Assembly (NCBI GenBank): GCA_018336075.1
Contig: JAGXRB010000048.1
Location: 1 to 33,369, forward strand
Length of the DNA: 33,369 nucleotides
DNA from: Bacteroidota bacterium
Lineage (GTDB): Bacteria > Bacteroidota > Bacteroidia > Bacteroidales > F082
Reading direction: 5' to 3'
In this document: piece after piece, positions 7,110 to 20,804 of the stretch
Layout: every line of letters begins with the position of its first letter
Numbering within the stretch: the first letter of the stretch is position 1
The notes under the pieces: model-generated
Database searches by the model: none
Seen by the model: the letters and a program-made list of their open reading frames with translations, nothing else
What the model was told of the DNA's origin: nothing
Program-made: the position numbers and the translations under genes

Positions 7110-7301
7110 AAGTGTAAAGTGCTGGTATATATGTTTTTATGTTGATTGGTTTAGAGGCTTTTGGCCATTAGCTGCTAGCTTTTGGCTGGATTGTTGAAAA
7201 TTCGGAAGATTTGGCTACGGAGAAATCGCCGGAAAAAATGCGATTTGGGCAGTTGAGGAAGTGTGAGAACAGGGTAGAATTTGACTTATATACCCTCAGG
7301 G

Positions 7302-7655
7302 CACAAAAAGAATGCGTCCGCACACAAAAAGAATGCGTCCGCAAGGTTGAAGAACGCGTCAGCATACAAAAAGAATGCGTCCGTAAGGTTGGAGAAGACG
7401 TCCGCAAACAAAAAGAATGCGTCTGCACACAAAAAGAATGCGTCTGTAAGGTTGGAGAACGCGTCTGTATACAAAAAGAACGCGTCCGTAAGGTTGGAGA
7501 ACGCGTCAGCATACAAAAAGAATGCGTCCGCACGGTTGGAGAACGCGTCTGCATACAAAAAGAATGCGTCTGCATACAAAAAGAATGCGTCCGTAAGGTT
7601 GGAGAACGCGTCAGCAAACAAAAAGAATGCGTCTGCAAGGTTGGAGAAGGTCTTT
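7302..7655. repeat. 21-bp-periodic tandem array with two alternating unit types
   Basis: Two 21-bp unit types alternate irregularly: A (acaaaaagaatgcgtccgc) and B (aaggttggagaacgcgtcagc). The pentamer GCGTC, or a one-base variant, recurs every 21 bp from 7314 to 7629, about 16 phased copies. Unit order is roughly A A B A B A A B A B A B A A B A B. Because the units lack stop codons in several frames, both strands show long ORFs (111-161 aa). I treat these as by-products, since none has a start signal or recognisable domain, although expression of a KKNASA/RLENASA repeat protein cannot be excluded. Two helical turns per unit would put every GCGTC on the same DNA face. Confidence 0.9.
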
Positions 7656-7835
7656 CGGAGGACGGAGGTCAGAGATCAGAGGACGGAGGTCAGTAGTCAG
7701 TCATAGATCAGTGGTCTGATAGTCAGTAAATTCACAACCTCAGTTACGAATTACGAATCACCGATCACCGATCACCGATCACCAATCACCGTTCACAGAT
7801 TACCAATCACAAATCACCGATCACCAATCACGATA
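7655..7835. repeat. Short degenerate direct repeats (GGACGGAGGTCAG; ATCACCG)
   Basis: Two low-complexity blocks sit side by side. At about 7658-7695 the phrase GGACGGAGGTCAG occurs twice with GATCAG between and after. At about 7756-7830 the phrase ATCACCG or ATCACCA is repeated many times at 7-10 bp spacing. No coding potential is seen. These look like slippage products common in intergenic DNA of this phylum. Confidence 0.8.
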
Positions 7836-13026: not shown

Positions 13027-16000
13027 ATGAATACTAAATTTTTTACCAATCAGGATCAGAATACCCTCATCAACAAAATCGAGGGAATATTTCAACATAA
13101 ACAGATTCACTTTTTCGATGCCTTGGTTGGTTACTTCAGAGCATCGGGTTATTTTAGAATTAGGGAGTTTGTAAAAAAATCAGATCAGATCAGGGTTTTA
13201 GTGGGAATCAATATCGACAACTTGATTCATGAGGCAAGTTCACAAGGCCTGCTTTTCGATAGCAATGCCGAAAGAGCTCAGGAAGAGTTCTTTCTTGAAA
13301 TAAAAAAAAGCATTCAAGAAGCCGAATATGATAAAGATGTTGAAAATGGAATGATTCAGTTAATTTCGGACATCATCACCGGTAAAGTTAAAATCAGGGC
13401 TCATCCAAAACAGAATATACACGCCAAAATCTATATTTTCAGAGAAAAAGAAAAACACGATCATGGTTATGGGTCAGTTATTACTGGATCAAGTAACTTA
13501 ACAGATGCCGGGCTTTCCCGTAATTTTGAGTTCAATGTGGAGCTAAGGGAAAATTCTGATATTGAGTTCGCTACAGAAACTTTTGATAAACTTTGGGAAG
13601 AATCTGTTCCTGTTGCTGAAGAATACATTGAGAAACTTCAGAAAGACACTTACCTGAATGATACATATACTCCTTATGAAGTATATTTGAAATTTCTAAT
13701 CGAATATTTTGGCAAAAGCATCGAATTTGATCCCAATTCAATTACTGATTTACCAAAAGGTTTTAAACGTCTATCCTACCAAATTGATGCTGTTAATGAT
13801 GGCTTTGCCAAAATGATGAAGCATAGTGGATTTCTCCTTGCCGATGTTGTGGGATTAGGGAAAACAATTGTAGCTATAATCATTGCAAAAAAATATTTCT
13901 ACACCAATGGTTTTCCCACATATCGTTCCAGAACATTAATAATCGTTCCCCCGGCTTTAAAGGACAACTGGTCCGAGACGGTTGATAAATTCAGGTTAGA
14001 CAATGTCAAAATTGTTACCAATGGAAGCCTGCATAAAGTGACCGACCCGGCGAAATATGATTTGATAATTGTTGATGAGGCGCACAAGTTCCGCACCGAC
14101 ACTGCCACAATGTATAATGATTTGCAAAAAATATGCAAAACTCCTACAAAACGCATTTTACCCAACGGGACAGTGGTGCAAAAGAAAATCATGTTAGTTT
14201 CTGCCACACCTTTGAACAATCGCCCGGAGGATATAGCTAATTTGGTTTATTTGTTTCAGGACAGCAAAAACTCAACGCTTGAAACAGGCAACCTTCAGAA
14301 TTTTTTCAGGGTTCAGATTGATGCTTACAGGAAATTGAAAAATGAAAAAGACATAAAAGTTGTTCAGGCTGGTGTTAAGAAAATCTATGAAAGAATCCGC
14401 ACAAAAGTTATTGAGCCATTAATTGTGAGAAGAACAAGAACCGACCTGCTTGTGCACAAACAATATGCTGAAGATTTAATGAACCAGGGGATTAAATTCC
14501 CTAAGGTCAAAGAACCAAAGAAGATTTTTTACCAATTAGAACCTCATTTGGAACTTCTCTATGACAAAACAATATTTGTACTCAGTAACGAAACACAGGG
14601 ATTAACTTACAATCGTTACAGAGCAATTGGCTTTCTGAAACAACCAAAAAAAAGCAAGTACAAGCAAGCAGACATGATTTCGGGACAATTGGCACGAATC
14701 ATGAAAACCTTGCTTGTTAAAAGAATTGACAGCAGTTTTTTCGCCTTCAAGCAATCCCTAGAACGCTTTTTATTGGCAACCAAGGCAATGGTTACGATGT
14801 TTGAGAACGGTAAAATATACATTGCACCAAATTTACCTGTCTCTGATATGATAAACGAGGGTAAAGAAGAAGAATTACTCAATCTTATTATCGAAAAATC
14901 AATTGACGATCCTACCATTGAGATTTGTGAACCTGATGATTTTGAGTACAATTTTCTCCCGGGTTTGAAAAATGATTATGAGTTACTCATAAACTTAAAT
15001 GACGACTGGAAAAAAATAATTGAAGATCCAAAACTGGATGTTTTTGTCGACTACCTTAAAAATAAACTACTCAGTAAAACGATCAATCCTCAGTCAAAAC
15101 TTGTTGTTTTCTCCGAAAGTAAAGAAACAACTGACTATTTGTTTAGGGAGCTTAAAAGGAAAGTCAACTATCGCATTCTTTCTGTTGATAGTGGATCCAG
15201 AAAAGAGAAAATGCCATCAATACGACAGAATTTTGATGCTAATCTGTCTAAAGCAGAACAAAAAGATGATTTCGATATCGTCATTTCTACTGAAGTTTTA
15301 GCTGAGGGCATCAACTTGCACCGTTCAAATGTTATTGTAAACTATGATACACCCTGGAATTCAACAAGATTGATGCAACGCATTGGTAGAGTCAACAGAA
15401 TTGGCTCTACAGCAGAAGAAGTGTTTGTTTTTAACTTCTACCCAACGGCTAAAGTAAACAATGATATCGAGCTCGAGAAAAAAGCCATTATGAAACTCCA
15501 GGCTTTTCATGCCGCATTAGGCGAGGACAGTCAAATCTATTCACCTGATGAGGAAACAGAATCATTCGGACTTTTTGATAAGCAAATGGAAGAAGAAACG
15601 GACGAAAAGTTGACTTACCTGATGATGATTCGTGACTTTAAAGAAAAGAACCCTGCGCTTTTCAAGCAAATAAAGAACATGCCTTTACGCGCAAGAGTTG
15701 GTAGAAAAAATGCCATTCTGAAGAATGGCACCATTTGCTTCATCAAAGACGAAAAACGGGATGCGTTTATTTATATCAAGCCAAACAACGAAGTTGATGA
15801 ACTTACATTCCTCGAAACAGTAAGGCAATTCGAAGCTTTTCTCAACGAAAAAGGAATCCCCTTGCACAACCAGCACCACGAGCAGGTGCAAAAAGCTATT
15901 AAGGTTTTTGCCGATAAAGCTGAGGATGAAAAAGCAAAAGACAAAAAAGTTGATGTCACCCAGGGTCCAAACGAAAAAAGTGCTATTGCATACCTCGACG

Positions 16001-16287
16001 CATTGCTTCATTTACCTTTTATCAACGACAAGGAATCTAAGCTTATCATCATTGCTAAAGAAGCTATCCGAAAAGGTAGATTTCAAAACTTGCAGCGCGA
16101 CATAAACAAACTTCATAAAGCCGTCAAGAAAACACCCCTAAATCCTGTGCTGATTCTTGAAAGAATTGTTGGAATACTAAACAGCTATCCGCTAAAGCAG
16201 GAAGAAGATGAAATATATCAGGAATTACAGATCGTAAAACCAAGAATTTATAACCCGGAAATAATTATCACTGAAAGTTTTAGCTGA
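13027..16287 (+). CDS. Phospholipase D-like nuclease fused to an SNF2-type DNA helicase/translocase
   Basis: 1086 aa. Residues 20-190 form a PLD-like domain with HxK (H132, K134 in NIHAKIYIF) followed by GSSNLTDAGL, the pattern of PLD nucleases such as the BfiI and NgoFVII class. From about 240 comes an SF2 helicase: GLGKT Walker A (277-281), DEAH box (350-353), SATPLN (392-397), and a C-terminal lobe ending in QRIGRVNRIGS (about 783-793). One half-PLD site implies dimerisation for catalysis. It opens the operon with KilA-N, methyltransferase and ATPase genes downstream. A role as the ATP-driven cleavage arm of a restriction-like system is inferred; the domain calls themselves are clear. Confidence 0.88.
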   Translation: MNTKFFTNQDQNTLINKIEGIFQHKQIHFFDALVGYFRASGYFRIREFVKKSDQIRVLVGINIDNLIHEASSQGLLFDSNAERAQEEFFLEIKKSIQEAEYDKDVENGMIQLISDIITGKVKIRAHPKQNIHAKIYIFREKEKHDHGYGSVITGSSNLTDAGLSRNFEFNVELRENSDIEFATETFDKLWEESVPVAEEYIEKLQKDTYLNDTYTPYEVYLKFLIEYFGKSIEFDPNSITDLPKGFKRLSYQIDAVNDGFAKMMKHSGFLLADVVGLGKTIVAIIIAKKYFYTNGFPTYRSRTLIIVPPALKDNWSETVDKFRLDNVKIVTNGSLHKVTDPAKYDLIIVDEAHKFRTDTATMYNDLQKICKTPTKRILPNGTVVQKKIMLVSATPLNNRPEDIANLVYLFQDSKNSTLETGNLQNFFRVQIDAYRKLKNEKDIKVVQAGVKKIYERIRTKVIEPLIVRRTRTDLLVHKQYAEDLMNQGIKFPKVKEPKKIFYQLEPHLELLYDKTIFVLSNETQGLTYNRYRAIGFLKQPKKSKYKQADMISGQLARIMKTLLVKRIDSSFFAFKQSLERFLLATKAMVTMFENGKIYIAPNLPVSDMINEGKEEELLNLIIEKSIDDPTIEICEPDDFEYNFLPGLKNDYELLINLNDDWKKIIEDPKLDVFVDYLKNKLLSKTINPQSKLVVFSESKETTDYLFRELKRKVNYRILSVDSGSRKEKMPSIRQNFDANLSKAEQKDDFDIVISTEVLAEGINLHRSNVIVNYDTPWNSTRLMQRIGRVNRIGSTAEEVFVFNFYPTAKVNNDIELEKKAIMKLQAFHAALGEDSQIYSPDEETESFGLFDKQMEEETDEKLTYLMMIRDFKEKNPALFKQIKNMPLRARVGRKNAILKNGTICFIKDEKRDAFIYIKPNNEVDELTFLETVRQFEAFLNEKGIPLHNQHHEQVQKAIKVFADKAEDEKAKDKKVDVTQGPNEKSAIAYLDALLHLPFINDKESKLIIIAKEAIRKGRFQNLQRDINKLHKAVKKTPLNPVLILERIVGILNSYPLKQEEDEIYQELQIVKPRIYNPEIIITESFS

Positions 16288-16297
16288 AAATAATTTC

Positions 16298-16321
16298 AAT
16301 TACCCCGAATTCGGTCTAATT
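16298..16321. promoter_or_regulatory. Operator-like palindrome upstream of the KilA-N gene
   Basis: AATTA, 3 nt, CGAATTCG, 3 nt, TAATT: a dyad centred at 16309.5 and ending 23 bp before the GTG start at 16345. The same arrangement, with every fixed base identical, recurs inside the gene at 16537-16560. Its place between the helicase stop and the KilA-N start suits an autoregulatory site that would split expression within the operon. Confidence 0.7.
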
Positions 16322-16344
16322 AAACAAAACTAAATTCATTCAGA

Positions 16345-17163
16345 GTGGCGAAAACCAATAAAATACATGTAAAAGACATCCAGATAGCAATCATCAATGA
16401 CGAATTTGGTGATTTCATTTCACTCACTGATATGTTAAAAGCCAAAGACGGTGATTTTTTTATTGCTGATTGGCTTAGAAATCGCAATACAGTTGAATTT
16501 CTGGGTGTATGGGAAAGTGTCAACAATCCAAGTTTTAATTATGGCGAATTCGCCATAATTAAAAGTCAGGCTGGTTTAAATAATTACAAAATCAGCGTCA
16601 AAGATTGGGTTCAAAAAACAAATGCAATCGGTTTGAGATCTACTGCAGGTAGATATGGGGGGACATACGCACATGTCGATATTGCATTTGAGTTTGGTAT
16701 GTGGATTTCTGCGGAGTTTAAAGTATATCTCATAAAAGAATTCAAACGCTTAAAAGAAGACGAAAACGAAAGGTTAAAACTAAACTGGGACTTCCAGCGA
16801 ACATTGGCCAAAGTCAACTACCGCATTCATACCGACGCAATCAAAGAAAACCTTATCCCAAAAGAATTGAATAAAAACCAGGTATCCTTTATATATGCCG
16901 ACGAAGCCGATATGCTTAATGTGGCTTTGTTTGGCAAAACTGCGCAGCAATGGAGGTCCGAAAACCCAACTGCATCTGGAAACATCCGCGATATGGCTAC
17001 AATCGAACAATTGGTAGTTTTATCAAATCTTGAAAGTATCAATGCCATGCTCATTCATCAGGGTTTAGCGCAATCCAACAGGCTGTACCAACTTAACCAA
17101 ATGGCTATTACGCAAATAAAGTCGCTTCTGAACCACAATTCATCCATTGGAAAACTGAAATGA
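16345..17163 (+). CDS. KilA-N domain DNA-binding protein, possible operon regulator
   Basis: 272 aa from a GTG start. The KilA-N domain spans about residues 8-130: ISLTDMLKAKDGDFFIADWL, NTVEFLGVWE, a GLNNYKISVKDWVQKTNAIG segment, and the hallmark GRYGGTYAHVDIAFEFGMWI. The C-terminal half is helical and probably dimerises or contacts a partner. KilA-N domains bind DNA and occur in phage regulators and beside restriction genes. The gene overlaps the methyltransferase start by 4 bp (ATGA), so translation is coupled. It carries one operator-like dyad just upstream of its start and a second copy within codons 64-73. I infer a control-protein role like that of C proteins in R-M systems; an alternative is a targeting subunit of the complex. 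Confidence 0.85.
   Translation: MAKTNKIHVKDIQIAIINDEFGDFISLTDMLKAKDGDFFIADWLRNRNTVEFLGVWESVNNPSFNYGEFAIIKSQAGLNNYKISVKDWVQKTNAIGLRSTAGRYGGTYAHVDIAFEFGMWISAEFKVYLIKEFKRLKEDENERLKLNWDFQRTLAKVNYRIHTDAIKENLIPKELNKNQVSFIYADEADMLNVALFGKTAQQWRSENPTASGNIRDMATIEQLVVLSNLESINAMLIHQGLAQSNRLYQLNQMAITQIKSLLNHNSSIGKLK
16533..16564. promoter_or_regulatory. Perfect 32-bp palindrome inside the KilA-N gene, matching the upstream operator
   Basis: Every base from 16533 to 16564 pairs with its mirror position around the centre at 16548.5; the core is TATGGCGAATTCGCCATA. The inner 24 bp (16537-16560) share the AATTA-3-CGAATTCG-3-TAATT layout with the site at 16298-16321, with centres 239 bp apart. It lies in codons for SFNYGEFAIIKS, a variable segment just before the conserved GLNNYKIS region. 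DNA looping between the two sites is possible but unproven. Confidence 0.75.
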
Positions 17164-20100
17164 AAGAACTTGAATTAAAAAATATACTCCGGATGGAGTT
17201 TGATTTCGAAAAGAACTGGAAACCATTGTTCTCGCTGCTATTCAAAAAGGTTCAATATTTCAGCAATCCATCAAACCCATTTTTCGAAAACTCAAAAGTT
17301 ATTTCCGGCAAGCAAACTGGCCTTGTCAAACTTGATGATGGAAAACAATTGGCCATTTTTGAAGTTGAAGTTGACGATAGTATTCATATCGACAAGAACC
17401 GTCAGGGCTTAAGGGAGATTGCAATCAAACACATTGACCAGAATATTACTCATGGGGCTTTTGTTTTCTTTTACTCAAAAAAACAGACCGATTACAGGTT
17501 TTCTTTCATTGCTAAATGGTCTGAGATTGATCTTGAAACAGGTGCATTTATAAAAGGTGAAACTAAGCCCAAACGCTATACCTATCTGTTGGGAGGCAAC
17601 GAGGCTTGCACTACTGCTGCAAAGCGTTTGTTAATGCTTGCTGCAAAACGTGATAATCAGGAAATTGGAATCAAAGATATTATTGATACTTTCTCGGTTG
17701 AATCGCTTAAAAAGGAATTCTTTAGAACCTACAAAGAGCATTATGAAAAGTTTTGGCGTTACATTGCCAATACTGATAATGGTTATCGAGACATATTACT
17801 TGATAAGGATGTAACTAAAGAAGAGGTAAAGAGGGAAAAGCCTATTCGAGATTTCGCTAAGAAACTCTTGGGTAGGATAGTATTTCTGCATTTCTTACAG
17901 AAAAAAGGGTGGATGGGTTGCTCAGTCAATACTAACAAATGGGAGAATGGCGAGAAACAATTTATGCAACAACTCTTTGCTGATTTTTCCGATAAAACCC
18001 GTTTTCACAGTCAATGCCTTACTAAATTGTTTTTCAATACGCTGAACACAAGAAGACCCAATGATATTTTTGAAACAAAAGGATTAAGCGGAAAACTAAA
18101 TGGTTCGCGTGTTCCTTACTTGAATGGGGGTTTGTTTGATGCTGATAAACCGGAGGAAGTTTTAACGATTGACTTTCCTGAAAAGTACTTTGCAGAATTG
18201 CTTGAATTTTTTGAACAGTACAATTTTACCATTGACGAAAACAGGCCCGATGACCATGAAGTAGGTATTGATCCAGAAATGTTGGGGCATATTTTTGAAA
18301 ACTTATTGGAAGAAAACCGGGAGAAAGGTGCTTTTTATACCCCAAAAGAGGTGGTGCAATATATGTGCAAGGAAAGCATTGTCCAATACCTGAGCAATTC
18401 GTTTGATGCGAAAGCTGATATTGAAATGTTTGTACGCAATCATGTTGTTTCTGAAAGCCTTGTTACTAAAGACAATGCTGTTTTGCTGAATAAATTACTG
18501 GACGAAATAAAGGTTTGCGACCCTGCCATTGGCTCAGGGGCCTTTCCTATTGGCATTTTGCAGGAAATTTTTGAAGCCAAAAAGTTTATTCATGATTATC
18601 TTATTCCCGTTGAAAAATTCAACCCTGCACAGGTAAAGAAAGACATTATCCAAAATTCAATCTATGGGGTTGATTTGGAAAAAGGAGCAGTTGACATTGC
18701 ACAACTCCGCTTTTGGTTGGCTTTAGTAGTTGACGAGGAAAACCCGCACCCATTGCCCAACCTCGATTATAAAATTATGCAGGGAAACAGCCTGCTCGAA
18801 AGCTTCGAAGGAATTGATTTAAGCAAAGCCGCCCTTTTTGAAGAACCAAAAGTTCGAATAATTGAACCTGATTTATTCCTTGAACCCGAAACAGTTTATG
18901 GTTTCACCGATAAAAACAGAAACGATATAAAAGAGCTTGTTTCCTCCTACTTCAAAGTGGAAGATAAATCCGAAAAGGCTGAAATTCGGAAGCGAATAGA
19001 TAAAATTGTTACCGAACATATTGATAAATCGTTGGAAGGTTACGAAAACCGACTGTTGATTGAAATTGCAGGTTTGGAAGAAACATTAAAACGGCATAAG
19101 GAGTTTTTGCGAAAATCGGACAAAACAGAAAAGGAAATAGAAAAACGAAAAAAACAACTGGAGCAGAAAGGCGAAGCCCGCAAAAAACTGCTTGCTTTTG
19201 AGTATACCGACGAACGCCCCTATTTCCTTTGGCATTTGTTTTTTATGGATGTGTTTGAAAAAGGTGGTTTTGATGTAATCATTGGTAATCCGCCTTATAT
19301 ACAATTGCAAAAAATGGGCAAAAATGCCGATATTTTGCAAGATGCAGGTTTTAAAACATTCAAACGCACAGGCGATATATACACCTTGTTTTTCGAAAAA
19401 GGAATTGAAATTTTAAAGGACAAAGGAACTTTAACTTATATTACTTCTAACACTTGGATGCGTACCAATTTTGGCGAAGGTCTAAGGGAATTTTTTGTTA
19501 CCAAATCAAATCCCGAAATACTTCTCAACTTTGAAGATACCAAAATATTTCCTACAGCAACTGTTGAGGTAAACATAATGGTTACCAAAAAAGAAAAATG
19601 GAATAAAAACCTTCAAGCAGTTGCAATTAAAGGCGATTATGTGCCTGGCAATTCTATAAACGATTATTTAAATGCGAAAAAAATTGTTCTGTACGATTTA
19701 GACAAAGAAAGTTGGGTTATTGTTGATAACGATGATTTTGAAATAAAAAATCAAATTATCAAAAAAGGGATTCAACTTAAAGAATGGGATATTGAATTTT
19801 ACAGAGGGTTTTTAACTGGACTTAATGACGCATTTTTTATTGATGAAGTAAAAAGAAATGAAATAATTAGAATTGAGCCTAAAAGCGAAGAAATTATTAA
19901 ACCCTTATTAAGAGGTCGAGAAATAAAAAAGTTTGGTTATAATTTTACAAATCATTATGTAATTTTTCCCCATAATGGAACTAAAGAAGATAAAAAGAAA
20001 AAACTCCCAGCAATAAAGAGAATAGAAGTTGAAAAAGAATATCCAACAATTTATAATCATTTACTTCAATATAAAGATTCAAATTCGCCGTTAGTTAAAC

Positions 20101-20804
20101 CGGATTCAAAAGGGAAACTACAAACTCTAATTGATAGAGCAGACCAAGGTGACCATTGGACTAATTTGCGAAATTGTGCTTACATTGATGTTTTTGATAT
20201 TGAAAAAATTGTTTGGCTTTCAATTTCTGACAAACCAGCATTTGCTCTTGATAAGAATAAAATGTATGTTACTGCGCCAGCCTACATTATGGTTAGCGAA
20301 TGCAATAAATACCTTCTCACAATGCTTAATTCCAAAGTAATGGAGTGGTATTTAGATAAAGTTTCTTCGTCAACAGGGCAAGGGACAAACCAATGGAGTA
20401 AAATATTTGTTGAGCAATTGCCAATACCACAACTTTCAGAAGAAAAACGAAAACCATTTGAAATTTTAGCCGACTATTTAATATTGCTGAACGACCCAAA
20501 AACGCTAAGCGTATTGGAACACGCTTCAAACGAAATGATAAGCCAGCAATTTGAAGAGGTTTTGAATATGATGGTTTACGAGCTTTACTTTGAAGAGCAC
20601 ATGAAAGAAAAAGAAATAGATGTATTGCAGTTTGTCAATTTTCCTGACATTTCCAACATACCAACCTTTGAAGGAAAGCGCGATGCCATTCAAAAAAATT
20701 ACTACTGGTTGAAAGAGAAGGATAACCCGATACGGAATAGAATTTTGGTTTCTTCGACCAGAAGCCCCAACATTATACAAAGGATTAATGAAACAACCCA
20801 TTAA
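17160..20804 (+). CDS. Eco57I-class adenine DNA methyltransferase, probable type IIG-like restriction-modification enzyme
   Basis: 1214 aa. The N-terminus has a nuclease-like strand pair (KQLAIFEVEVDD, about 61-72, followed by NRQGLREIAIKHI) resembling the PD-(D/E)XK segment of type IIG enzymes, but with E-V-E in place of ExK, so cleavage activity is doubtful. The methyltransferase core has motif I CDPAIGSGAF (about 453) and the N6-adenine motif NPPY (about 710), separated by an insertion with a coiled coil (about 640-680). The C-terminal third carries a TaqI-like target-recognition region (EIIKPLLRGREIKKFGYNF). It overlaps KilA-N by 4 bp and is followed after 2 bp by the ATPase gene. It probably marks host DNA and gives the operon its sequence specificity. 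Confidence 0.88.
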   Translation: MKELELKNILRMEFDFEKNWKPLFSLLFKKVQYFSNPSNPFFENSKVISGKQTGLVKLDDGKQLAIFEVEVDDSIHIDKNRQGLREIAIKHIDQNITHGAFVFFYSKKQTDYRFSFIAKWSEIDLETGAFIKGETKPKRYTYLLGGNEACTTAAKRLLMLAAKRDNQEIGIKDIIDTFSVESLKKEFFRTYKEHYEKFWRYIANTDNGYRDILLDKDVTKEEVKREKPIRDFAKKLLGRIVFLHFLQKKGWMGCSVNTNKWENGEKQFMQQLFADFSDKTRFHSQCLTKLFFNTLNTRRPNDIFETKGLSGKLNGSRVPYLNGGLFDADKPEEVLTIDFPEKYFAELLEFFEQYNFTIDENRPDDHEVGIDPEMLGHIFENLLEENREKGAFYTPKEVVQYMCKESIVQYLSNSFDAKADIEMFVRNHVVSESLVTKDNAVLLNKLLDEIKVCDPAIGSGAFPIGILQEIFEAKKFIHDYLIPVEKFNPAQVKKDIIQNSIYGVDLEKGAVDIAQLRFWLALVVDEENPHPLPNLDYKIMQGNSLLESFEGIDLSKAALFEEPKVRIIEPDLFLEPETVYGFTDKNRNDIKELVSSYFKVEDKSEKAEIRKRIDKIVTEHIDKSLEGYENRLLIEIAGLEETLKRHKEFLRKSDKTEKEIEKRKKQLEQKGEARKKLLAFEYTDERPYFLWHLFFMDVFEKGGFDVIIGNPPYIQLQKMGKNADILQDAGFKTFKRTGDIYTLFFEKGIEILKDKGTLTYITSNTWMRTNFGEGLREFFVTKSNPEILLNFEDTKIFPTATVEVNIMVTKKEKWNKNLQAVAIKGDYVPGNSINDYLNAKKIVLYDLDKESWVIVDNDDFEIKNQIIKKGIQLKEWDIEFYRGFLTGLNDAFFIDEVKRNEIIRIEPKSEEIIKPLLRGREIKKFGYNFTNHYVIFPHNGTKEDKKKKLPAIKRIEVEKEYPTIYNHLLQYKDSNSPLVKPDSKGKLQTLIDRADQGDHWTNLRNCAYIDVFDIEKIVWLSISDKPAFALDKNKMYVTAPAYIMVSECNKYLLTMLNSKVMEWYLDKVSSSTGQGTNQWSKIFVEQLPIPQLSEEKRKPFEILADYLILLNDPKTLSVLEHASNEMISQQFEEVLNMMVYELYFEEHMKEKEIDVLQFVNFPDISNIPTFEGKRDAIQKNYYWLKEKDNPIRNRILVSSTRSPNIIQRINETTH

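Follow-up and report, generated by a model that had tools for sequence, protein, structure and literature searches.

A palindrome kept at the DNA level inside KilA-N genes, and related 24-bp units upstream of the gene and in phages

Results

A KilA-N gene with an internal palindrome lies between a helicase and a methylase gene

The window analysed here is a stretch of 33,369 nt, positions 1-33,369 (forward strand) of contig JAGXRB010000048.1 from a Bacteroidota bacterium (F082; GCA_018336075.1). The locus under study contains the following features.

13027..16287, + strand: PLD-SNF2 helicase gene, the upstream neighbour of the KilA-N gene and a natural partner of the methylase
16294..16325, no strand: degraded upstream copy of the palindrome, located after the helicase stop and ahead of the KilA-N start, made up of TCAA (16296-16299), TTACCC-CGAATTCG-GTCTAA (16300-16319) and TTAA (16320-16323)
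16345..17163, + strand: gene for a KilA-N protein of 272 aa, starting at GTG; matches the PADLOC candidate defence family PDC-S22
16533..16564, no strand: perfect 32-bp palindrome in the KilA-N gene, made up of TTAA (16535-16538), a 20-bp dyad reading TTATGG-CGAATTCG-CCATAA (16539-16558) and TTAA (16559-16562)
17160..20804, + strand: type IIG-like restriction enzyme-methyltransferase gene, whose first 4 bp (ATGA) overlap the KilA-N stop

The window protein matches Pfam KilA-N (PF04383) with E 2.8e-21 and 75.8 bits, against a curated cut-off of 23.8, and PDC-S22 over nearly its full length (residues 1-266 of 272, E 2e-129); we found no description of PDC-S22 that mentions the palindrome. Its residues 64-73, FNYGEFAIIK, are encoded by the inner palindrome, and an AF2 model (mean pLDDT 80) predicts that the palindrome-encoded segment forms a loop and a helix (66-75). 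A fold search with this model ranked DdrC, a Deinococcus DNA-binding protein (8u0g, 7udi), as the best match (E 9e-4, TM about 0.2), followed more weakly by the APSES factor Mbp1 (E 0.18-0.25); both likenesses are weak and would serve as leads only. To our knowledge DdrC, a DNA-damage response protein, has not been described as a relative of KilA-N, and a PDB sequence search for solved KilA-N relatives returned nothing useful.

The surroundings of the locus, window positions 8374-30103, form a dense defence-like island that includes a DUF4365 protein, a PDC-S45 protease, DUF2130, an AAA ATPase, a Ser/Thr kinase with an FHA domain, AbiH, DUF5131 and a dCTP-deaminase-like protein (dCTPase model, E 1e-124). 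Repetitive coding stretches occur at 7168-7696 (QKECVRKVGERV-type) and at 72-731 (EKKVASNHTAP-type).

A sequence-only reading of this DNA had described two dyads whose fixed positions all agree. The pattern AATTA-N3-CGAATTCG-N3-TAATT indeed occurs exactly twice, at 16298-16321 (AATTACCCCGAATTCGGTCTAATT) and 16537-16560 (AATTATGGCGAATTCGCCATAATT), with 0 mismatches over the 18 fixed positions, and a search of the window at up to 3 mismatches returned the same two sites only (0.08 expected; two sites in 0/100 shuffles). The inner copy widens, as that reading had also reported, to a perfect 32-bp palindrome with 16/16 pairs, and folds as single-stranded DNA at -12.3 kcal/mol (z -5.9). The upstream copy, placed 24-47 bp ahead of the GTG start inside the 57-bp gap that follows the helicase stop, is a degraded palindrome with 12/16 pairs and a hairpin z of -0.7, folding no better than shuffled DNA. 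A copy of this type precedes the gene in a 93% identical relative (L004) and is absent from another (L011), in which the gap measures a few bases.

Comparison across the family gave TTAA-N6-CGAATTCG-N6-TTAA as the natural unit; the AATTA of the sequence-only reading consists of the inner AA of TTAA and the first three arm bases, which vary across the family. When the 4.79-Mb host genome was searched with TTNNAA-N6-CGAATTCG-N6-TTNNAA, the only matches were the inner site and, on a different contig, a KilA-N gene fragment of 44 aa, and the reversed control pattern gave 0 matches in the same genome. A chance palindrome was ruled out by the window shuffles together with the genome, viral and reversed-pattern controls. 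A terminator was likewise rejected: T's precede and A's follow the stem, which is the wrong way round, and a terminator scan finds no such site there.

The internal palindrome is kept across the KilA-N family and its arms covary

The internal palindrome was present in 80/80 GTDB relatives chosen by protein (70-93% identical), drawn from Bacteroidota, Verrucomicrobiota, Pseudomonadota, Planctomycetota, Acidobacteriota, CPR and other taxa. Their codons read TTTTAATTATGGCGAATTCGCCAYAATTAAAA with hardly any synonymous variation (GGC for Gly in 80/80, GCC for Ala in 77/77, ATA for Ile in 60/60 and ATT for Ile in 80/80), adjoining codons vary freely, and synonymous-codon information is highest at codons 64-74. 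A domain search of 396 Bacteroidota genomes placed the dyad at the same codons in 40/40 top-listed KilA-N loci, distant subfamilies included, and the palindrome is also found in phage or plasmid copies of the gene from Aeromonas, Xenorhabdus, Parabacteroides, Streptococcus and Staphylococcus. We found no KilA-N gene that lacks the palindrome segment; even a divergent E. coli copy has it, with the ten residues kept, 12/15 pairs (counted from the printed sequence) and an altered core. The internal palindrome is thus kept at the DNA level across the KilA-N family, a claim that stands on the protein-chosen sets, the viral and class-level sites described below having been picked by motif.

Two side observations concern the distribution of the gene. 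Among 5,426 complete E. coli genomes, only one, 2022CK-00450 (L530), matched the Aeromonas or E. coli KilA-N copy at the DNA level, and there the gene lies beside dinD. Several short KilA-N gene fragments (L003/L085 on contig 204 of the window's own genome, L309, L310, L509, L527 and L528) hold an almost perfect palindrome, the remaining gene being gone.

The arms of the palindrome change in complementary pairs across subfamilies. In 144 representatives, 14.06 of 15 arm pairs were complementary on average, where protein sequence and codon usage of each gene would predict 9.47; the excess reached p<0.01 in 90% of them, and the best other 30-mer in the tested genes scored 11. The codons flanking Glu-Phe are, in most genes, GGC/GCC, GTC/GAC, ATC/GAT, CTC/GAG, CCC/GGG, ACC/GGT, AAC/GTT or ACT/AGT, so that eight unlike residue pairs (GA, VD, ID, LE, PG, TG, NV and TS) are each encoded by a reverse-complement codon pair. 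Across 46 distinct sequences, 122 cells had changed on both sides, compared with 39 in shuffles, and covariation was 0.444 versus 0.125, a signal that collapses when the arms are paired in slid registers. The flanking residue pair has changed about 30 times on a tree built without those residues, and in one locus (L279) the core itself has changed symmetrically, to TGAATTCA.

These data bear on the idea that the conserved residues F-N-x-x-E-F-x-x-I-K happen by coincidence to have palindromic codons. At the protein level F64, E68 and F69 do not vary, which agrees with it; the invariance of synonymous sites, the existence of non-coding copies and the reverse-complement origin of nearly all codon pairs around EF speak against it, and we regard its probability as practically negligible. 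The earlier proposal that the dyads are selected at the DNA level and tied to the KilA-N family is borne out; the observation behind it is real and much stronger than had been claimed.

Upstream copies are uncommon, and the gene also occurs outside restriction operons

A unit lies within 200 bp upstream of 15/162 KilA-N genes and within 200 bp downstream of 0/160. About 90% of KilA-N genes have the internal copy only, upstream copies are often decayed, and the arms of upstream copies mostly differ from the internal arms of the same locus. The sequence-only reading would fall if homologous operons had no dyad at these positions. For the internal copy, which is found in essentially every homologue, it stands; a pair of upstream and internal operators is not the general design, and in the window itself the upstream copy is imperfect. 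Upstream copies may be optional, additional control sites.

The neighbourhood of the gene varies as well. Among relatives of the helicase, the methylase often follows directly without KilA-N, and the palindrome is missing from such loci. KilA-N sits between helicase and methylase in the window and in three other loci (L004, L011 and L327), and after the helicase in a further one (L324); wherever it joins the helicase-methylase pair, the internal palindrome is present too. As the pair also exists with neither the gene nor the palindrome, we view KilA-N as an optional, movable passenger of the operon. Restriction or helicase proteins make up about a third of its annotated neighbours, and the gene with its palindrome also occurs in phages, satellite phages, a conjugative/integrative element, conjugative plasmids and apparent cassette arrays. 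A restriction context is therefore common but not required, and the suggested role of a control protein for restriction in particular does not hold.

No conserved ends of a larger mobile unit were seen around KilA-N, save for cassette-like 3' flanks at some loci. Seven loci (L028, L033, L042, L050, L052, L072 and L073) share a common 3' flank around CAACGAACCG right after the KilA-N stop. Flanks of this type resemble integron cassette (attC-type) ends, which raises the possibility that in several phyla KilA-N moves as a gene cassette.

Units occur outside the gene in bacteria and phages

Among 395 Bacteroidia genomes we found 44 sites, compared with 0 for the reversed-pattern control, and 27 of the 30 sites examined fall within KilA-N genes or their fragments, or just upstream of them. 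A second sample of 297 genomes gave a similar picture, with 22/25 units in or just before KilA-N genes and again 0 matches to the reversed control. In IMG/VR, the pattern TTTAA-N6-CGAATTCG-N6-TTAAA matched 118 stretches, against 3 for a control core; 47 of these stretches lie within KilA-N genes and 70 have no KilA-N nearby. When 50 phage records with a solitary unit were tested, 49 held no KilA-N gene, many of the records being fragments.

The solitary phage sites have an arm symmetry of 4.09/6, compared with 2.15, and their arms come from the same repertoire as those in KilA-N genes. The link between units and protein is thus one of co-occurrence in bacterial genomes and of a common arm repertoire. 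We considered whether the solitary units are decayed KilA-N genes and rejected this, as KilA-N-like flanks are kept in 2/70 only; that they are operators of KilA-N-bearing phages was rejected in view of the records that lack the gene. The solitary units are located in other ORFs (portal, RusA-like, helicase), downstream of stop codons or where convergent genes meet. A phage portal protein (L420-L499) has a hypervariable linker in which a palindrome unit or its half-decayed remnants (SMELKKK, SSVELKKK) stand at the mosaic junction, which suggests that units mark recombination joints.

The positions after stop codons and between convergent genes are awkward for an mRNA hairpin through which the KilA-N message would be regulated in its translation or stability. 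Perfect stem-loop potential and the presence of copies in the 5' region fit such a role, whereas the arm mismatches have no wobble bias, G-U pairs being no better tolerated than A-C (53 versus 57, counts that are not independent of phylogeny). We consider an mRNA hairpin very improbable.

A selfish palindromic repeat whose function is unrelated to the KilA-N protein would account for units in unrelated phage genes and as insertions, and for the common arm repertoire. The gene would then contain an old in-frame copy, comparable to the palindromic elements in Rickettsia ORFs, and the arms would be kept matched by quasi-palindrome correction or by gene conversion from other copies. However, KilA-N genes of all phyla essentially always retain their copy, whereas solitary and upstream copies decay; most bacterial units lie in or just before KilA-N genes; and the exact arms are frozen inside the NYGEF clade. 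Such a repeat seems improbable to us.

Phage units are insertions of 24 bp beside TTAA

Relatives of a phage terminase locus provided empty and occupied junctions. One relative is empty, reading CCGTTTTAAAAAAGATTAG (L343), and three are occupied, reading CCTTTTTAA-TTACATCGAATTCGATGTTT-TTAAAAAAGATTAG (L340-342); further relatives are empty, reading CCTTTCTAATG (L344-347), or occupied, reading CCTTTTTAA-TTCCATCGAATTCGACGGGT-TTAATG (L353). In both junction sets the gain is 24 bp, eight codons' worth, with the reading frame kept and a 20-bp dyad flanked by TTAA. Judged from these junctions, the units are insertions beside TTAA in phages. TTAA on both sides together with a net gain of 24 bp would fit a target duplication or, equally, a 24-nt insertion 3' of TTAA. 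Tandem arrays with a 24-bp step were found at three loci (L147, L069 and L108), and one at 48 bp (L212) contains a decayed middle unit; some tandem arrays lie directly upstream of KilA-N genes.

These insertions weigh on the operator model in its simplest form, according to which a KilA-N dimer binds the palindrome 190 bp into its own gene and blocks transcription. Upstream copies would be extra operators under this model and solitary copies unrelated or accidental, and because the gene moves singly under foreign promoters, the brake must be inside the reading frame. KilA-N is a DNA-binding domain, the internal copy is universal, extra copies lie upstream of the start and never downstream, and the gene occupies many operon and cassette contexts, all in keeping with such a brake. 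A sequence-specific operator would not, however, have arms that vary yet pair, nor upstream arms that are usually unlike the internal ones, and the model leaves unexplained the arm covariation and the 24-bp insertions and arrays in KilA-N-free phages, often at convergent or stop-codon positions. An intragenic operator and nothing else is possible but, in our estimation, rather unlikely.

Discussion

The explanation we prefer, and to which we give about even weight for and against, is that of a dispersed family of 24-bp palindromes with a KilA-N partner and a master copy in the partner's gene, following a logic like that of REP palindromes and RAYT. The unit would consist of TTAA followed by N6-CGAATTCG-N6 and end at another TTAA, with one obligatory copy in the PDC-S22-type KilA-N gene. 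The KilA-N protein, through its N-terminal domain of the KilA-N/APSES DNA-binding type, would recognise the palindrome and bind or move it. Fixed landmarks with arms that vary yet pair suggest that the DNA is recognised by its symmetry or its fold: TTAA and CGAATTCG would be read as such, and the arms would merely be required to pair. The in-gene copy would be the master copy and at the same time a self-contained brake on the gene that carries it, travelling wherever the gene lands. Because this intragenic site travels with a single-unit gene among phages, cassettes and operons, self-limitation anywhere would be its natural role. Occasional copying of units to TTAA sites would give rise to the upstream and solitary copies, as for REP palindromes and RAYT.

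A bolder version is that of a self-recognising gene, in which the codons of a part of the DNA-binding region would themselves be the palindromic target that the protein recognises and copies, in 24-bp units, into TTAA sites, building tandem arrays; we put this forward tentatively and doubt it. The further proposal of a new class of mobile DNA, with protein sequence, DNA target and mobile element evolving jointly in one set of ten codons, forms part of that version and appears to us just as doubtful.

Compensatory codon changes that preserve a palindrome in a mobile, multi-phylum gene are a clear case of a DNA-level function laid over the protein code. KilA-N proteins, which occur in defence islands and phages and are poorly understood, gain a specific candidate DNA target, for which the CGAATTCG-centred motif can serve as a probe. 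If KilA-N does spread the units, their 24 bp would amount to a minimal mobile element, and small in-frame inserts in phage genes would be easier to account for; we know of no transposable unit as small as this. In mainly open-access literature we found no earlier description of the CGAATTCG motif or of a KilA-N palindrome.

Several known systems share parts of this picture. The C proteins of restriction-modification systems are of the HTH-XRE type and act at upstream C-boxes, and intragenic operators are known in lac and gal. C proteins resemble the present case as small DNA-binding proteins with dyad sites near their own gene in a restriction-like operon; they differ in that the universal KilA-N site is intragenic and the gene has other settings besides restriction operons. 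The window protein has a KilA-N domain only, with no HTH family match, which sets it apart from C proteins. The palindromic elements of Rickettsia, about 100-150 bp long, lie in frame within ORFs and are scattered over many genes. KilA-N units share the in-frame insertion, but measure 24 bp, lie beside TTAA and are obligatory in one gene family (for a review of palindromic elements, see PMC10969869). A classical MITE or IS derivative has terminal inverted repeats around an interior and a target-site duplication; the TTAA on both sides and the 24-bp net insertion seen here would fit such a duplication or, just as well, a 24-nt unit placed 3' of TTAA, and no interior is present.

Integron attC sites combine short fixed landmarks with a stem that is variable but paired. 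IS200/IS605 ends likewise have fixed short landmarks, a variable paired stem and a tetranucleotide target beside the insertion (PMC6006769). Unlike both, KilA-N units have no recognised transposase or integrase and no interior, and their 20-bp dyad is fully symmetric.

REP sequences are short (20-40 bp), dispersed and clustered palindromes with a dedicated DNA-binding partner gene, RAYT/TnpA-REP, that has copies beside it; they are extragenic and of high copy number, many are tagged with GTAG or CGTC, and their partner belongs to the Y1 (HUH) transposases (PMC2817692, PMC8266576, PMC3733652). Pfam and NCBIfam scans of KilA-N proteins give KilA-N or nothing, with no Y1/HUH transposase. KilA-N units too are short, dispersed and clustered palindromes with copies adjoining the partner gene, as seen in their placement upstream rather than downstream of it and in the solitary and tandem units, but they differ from REPs in that one unit lies inside the gene itself, in having about 1-3 copies per genome, and in their CGAATTCG core flanked by TTAA.
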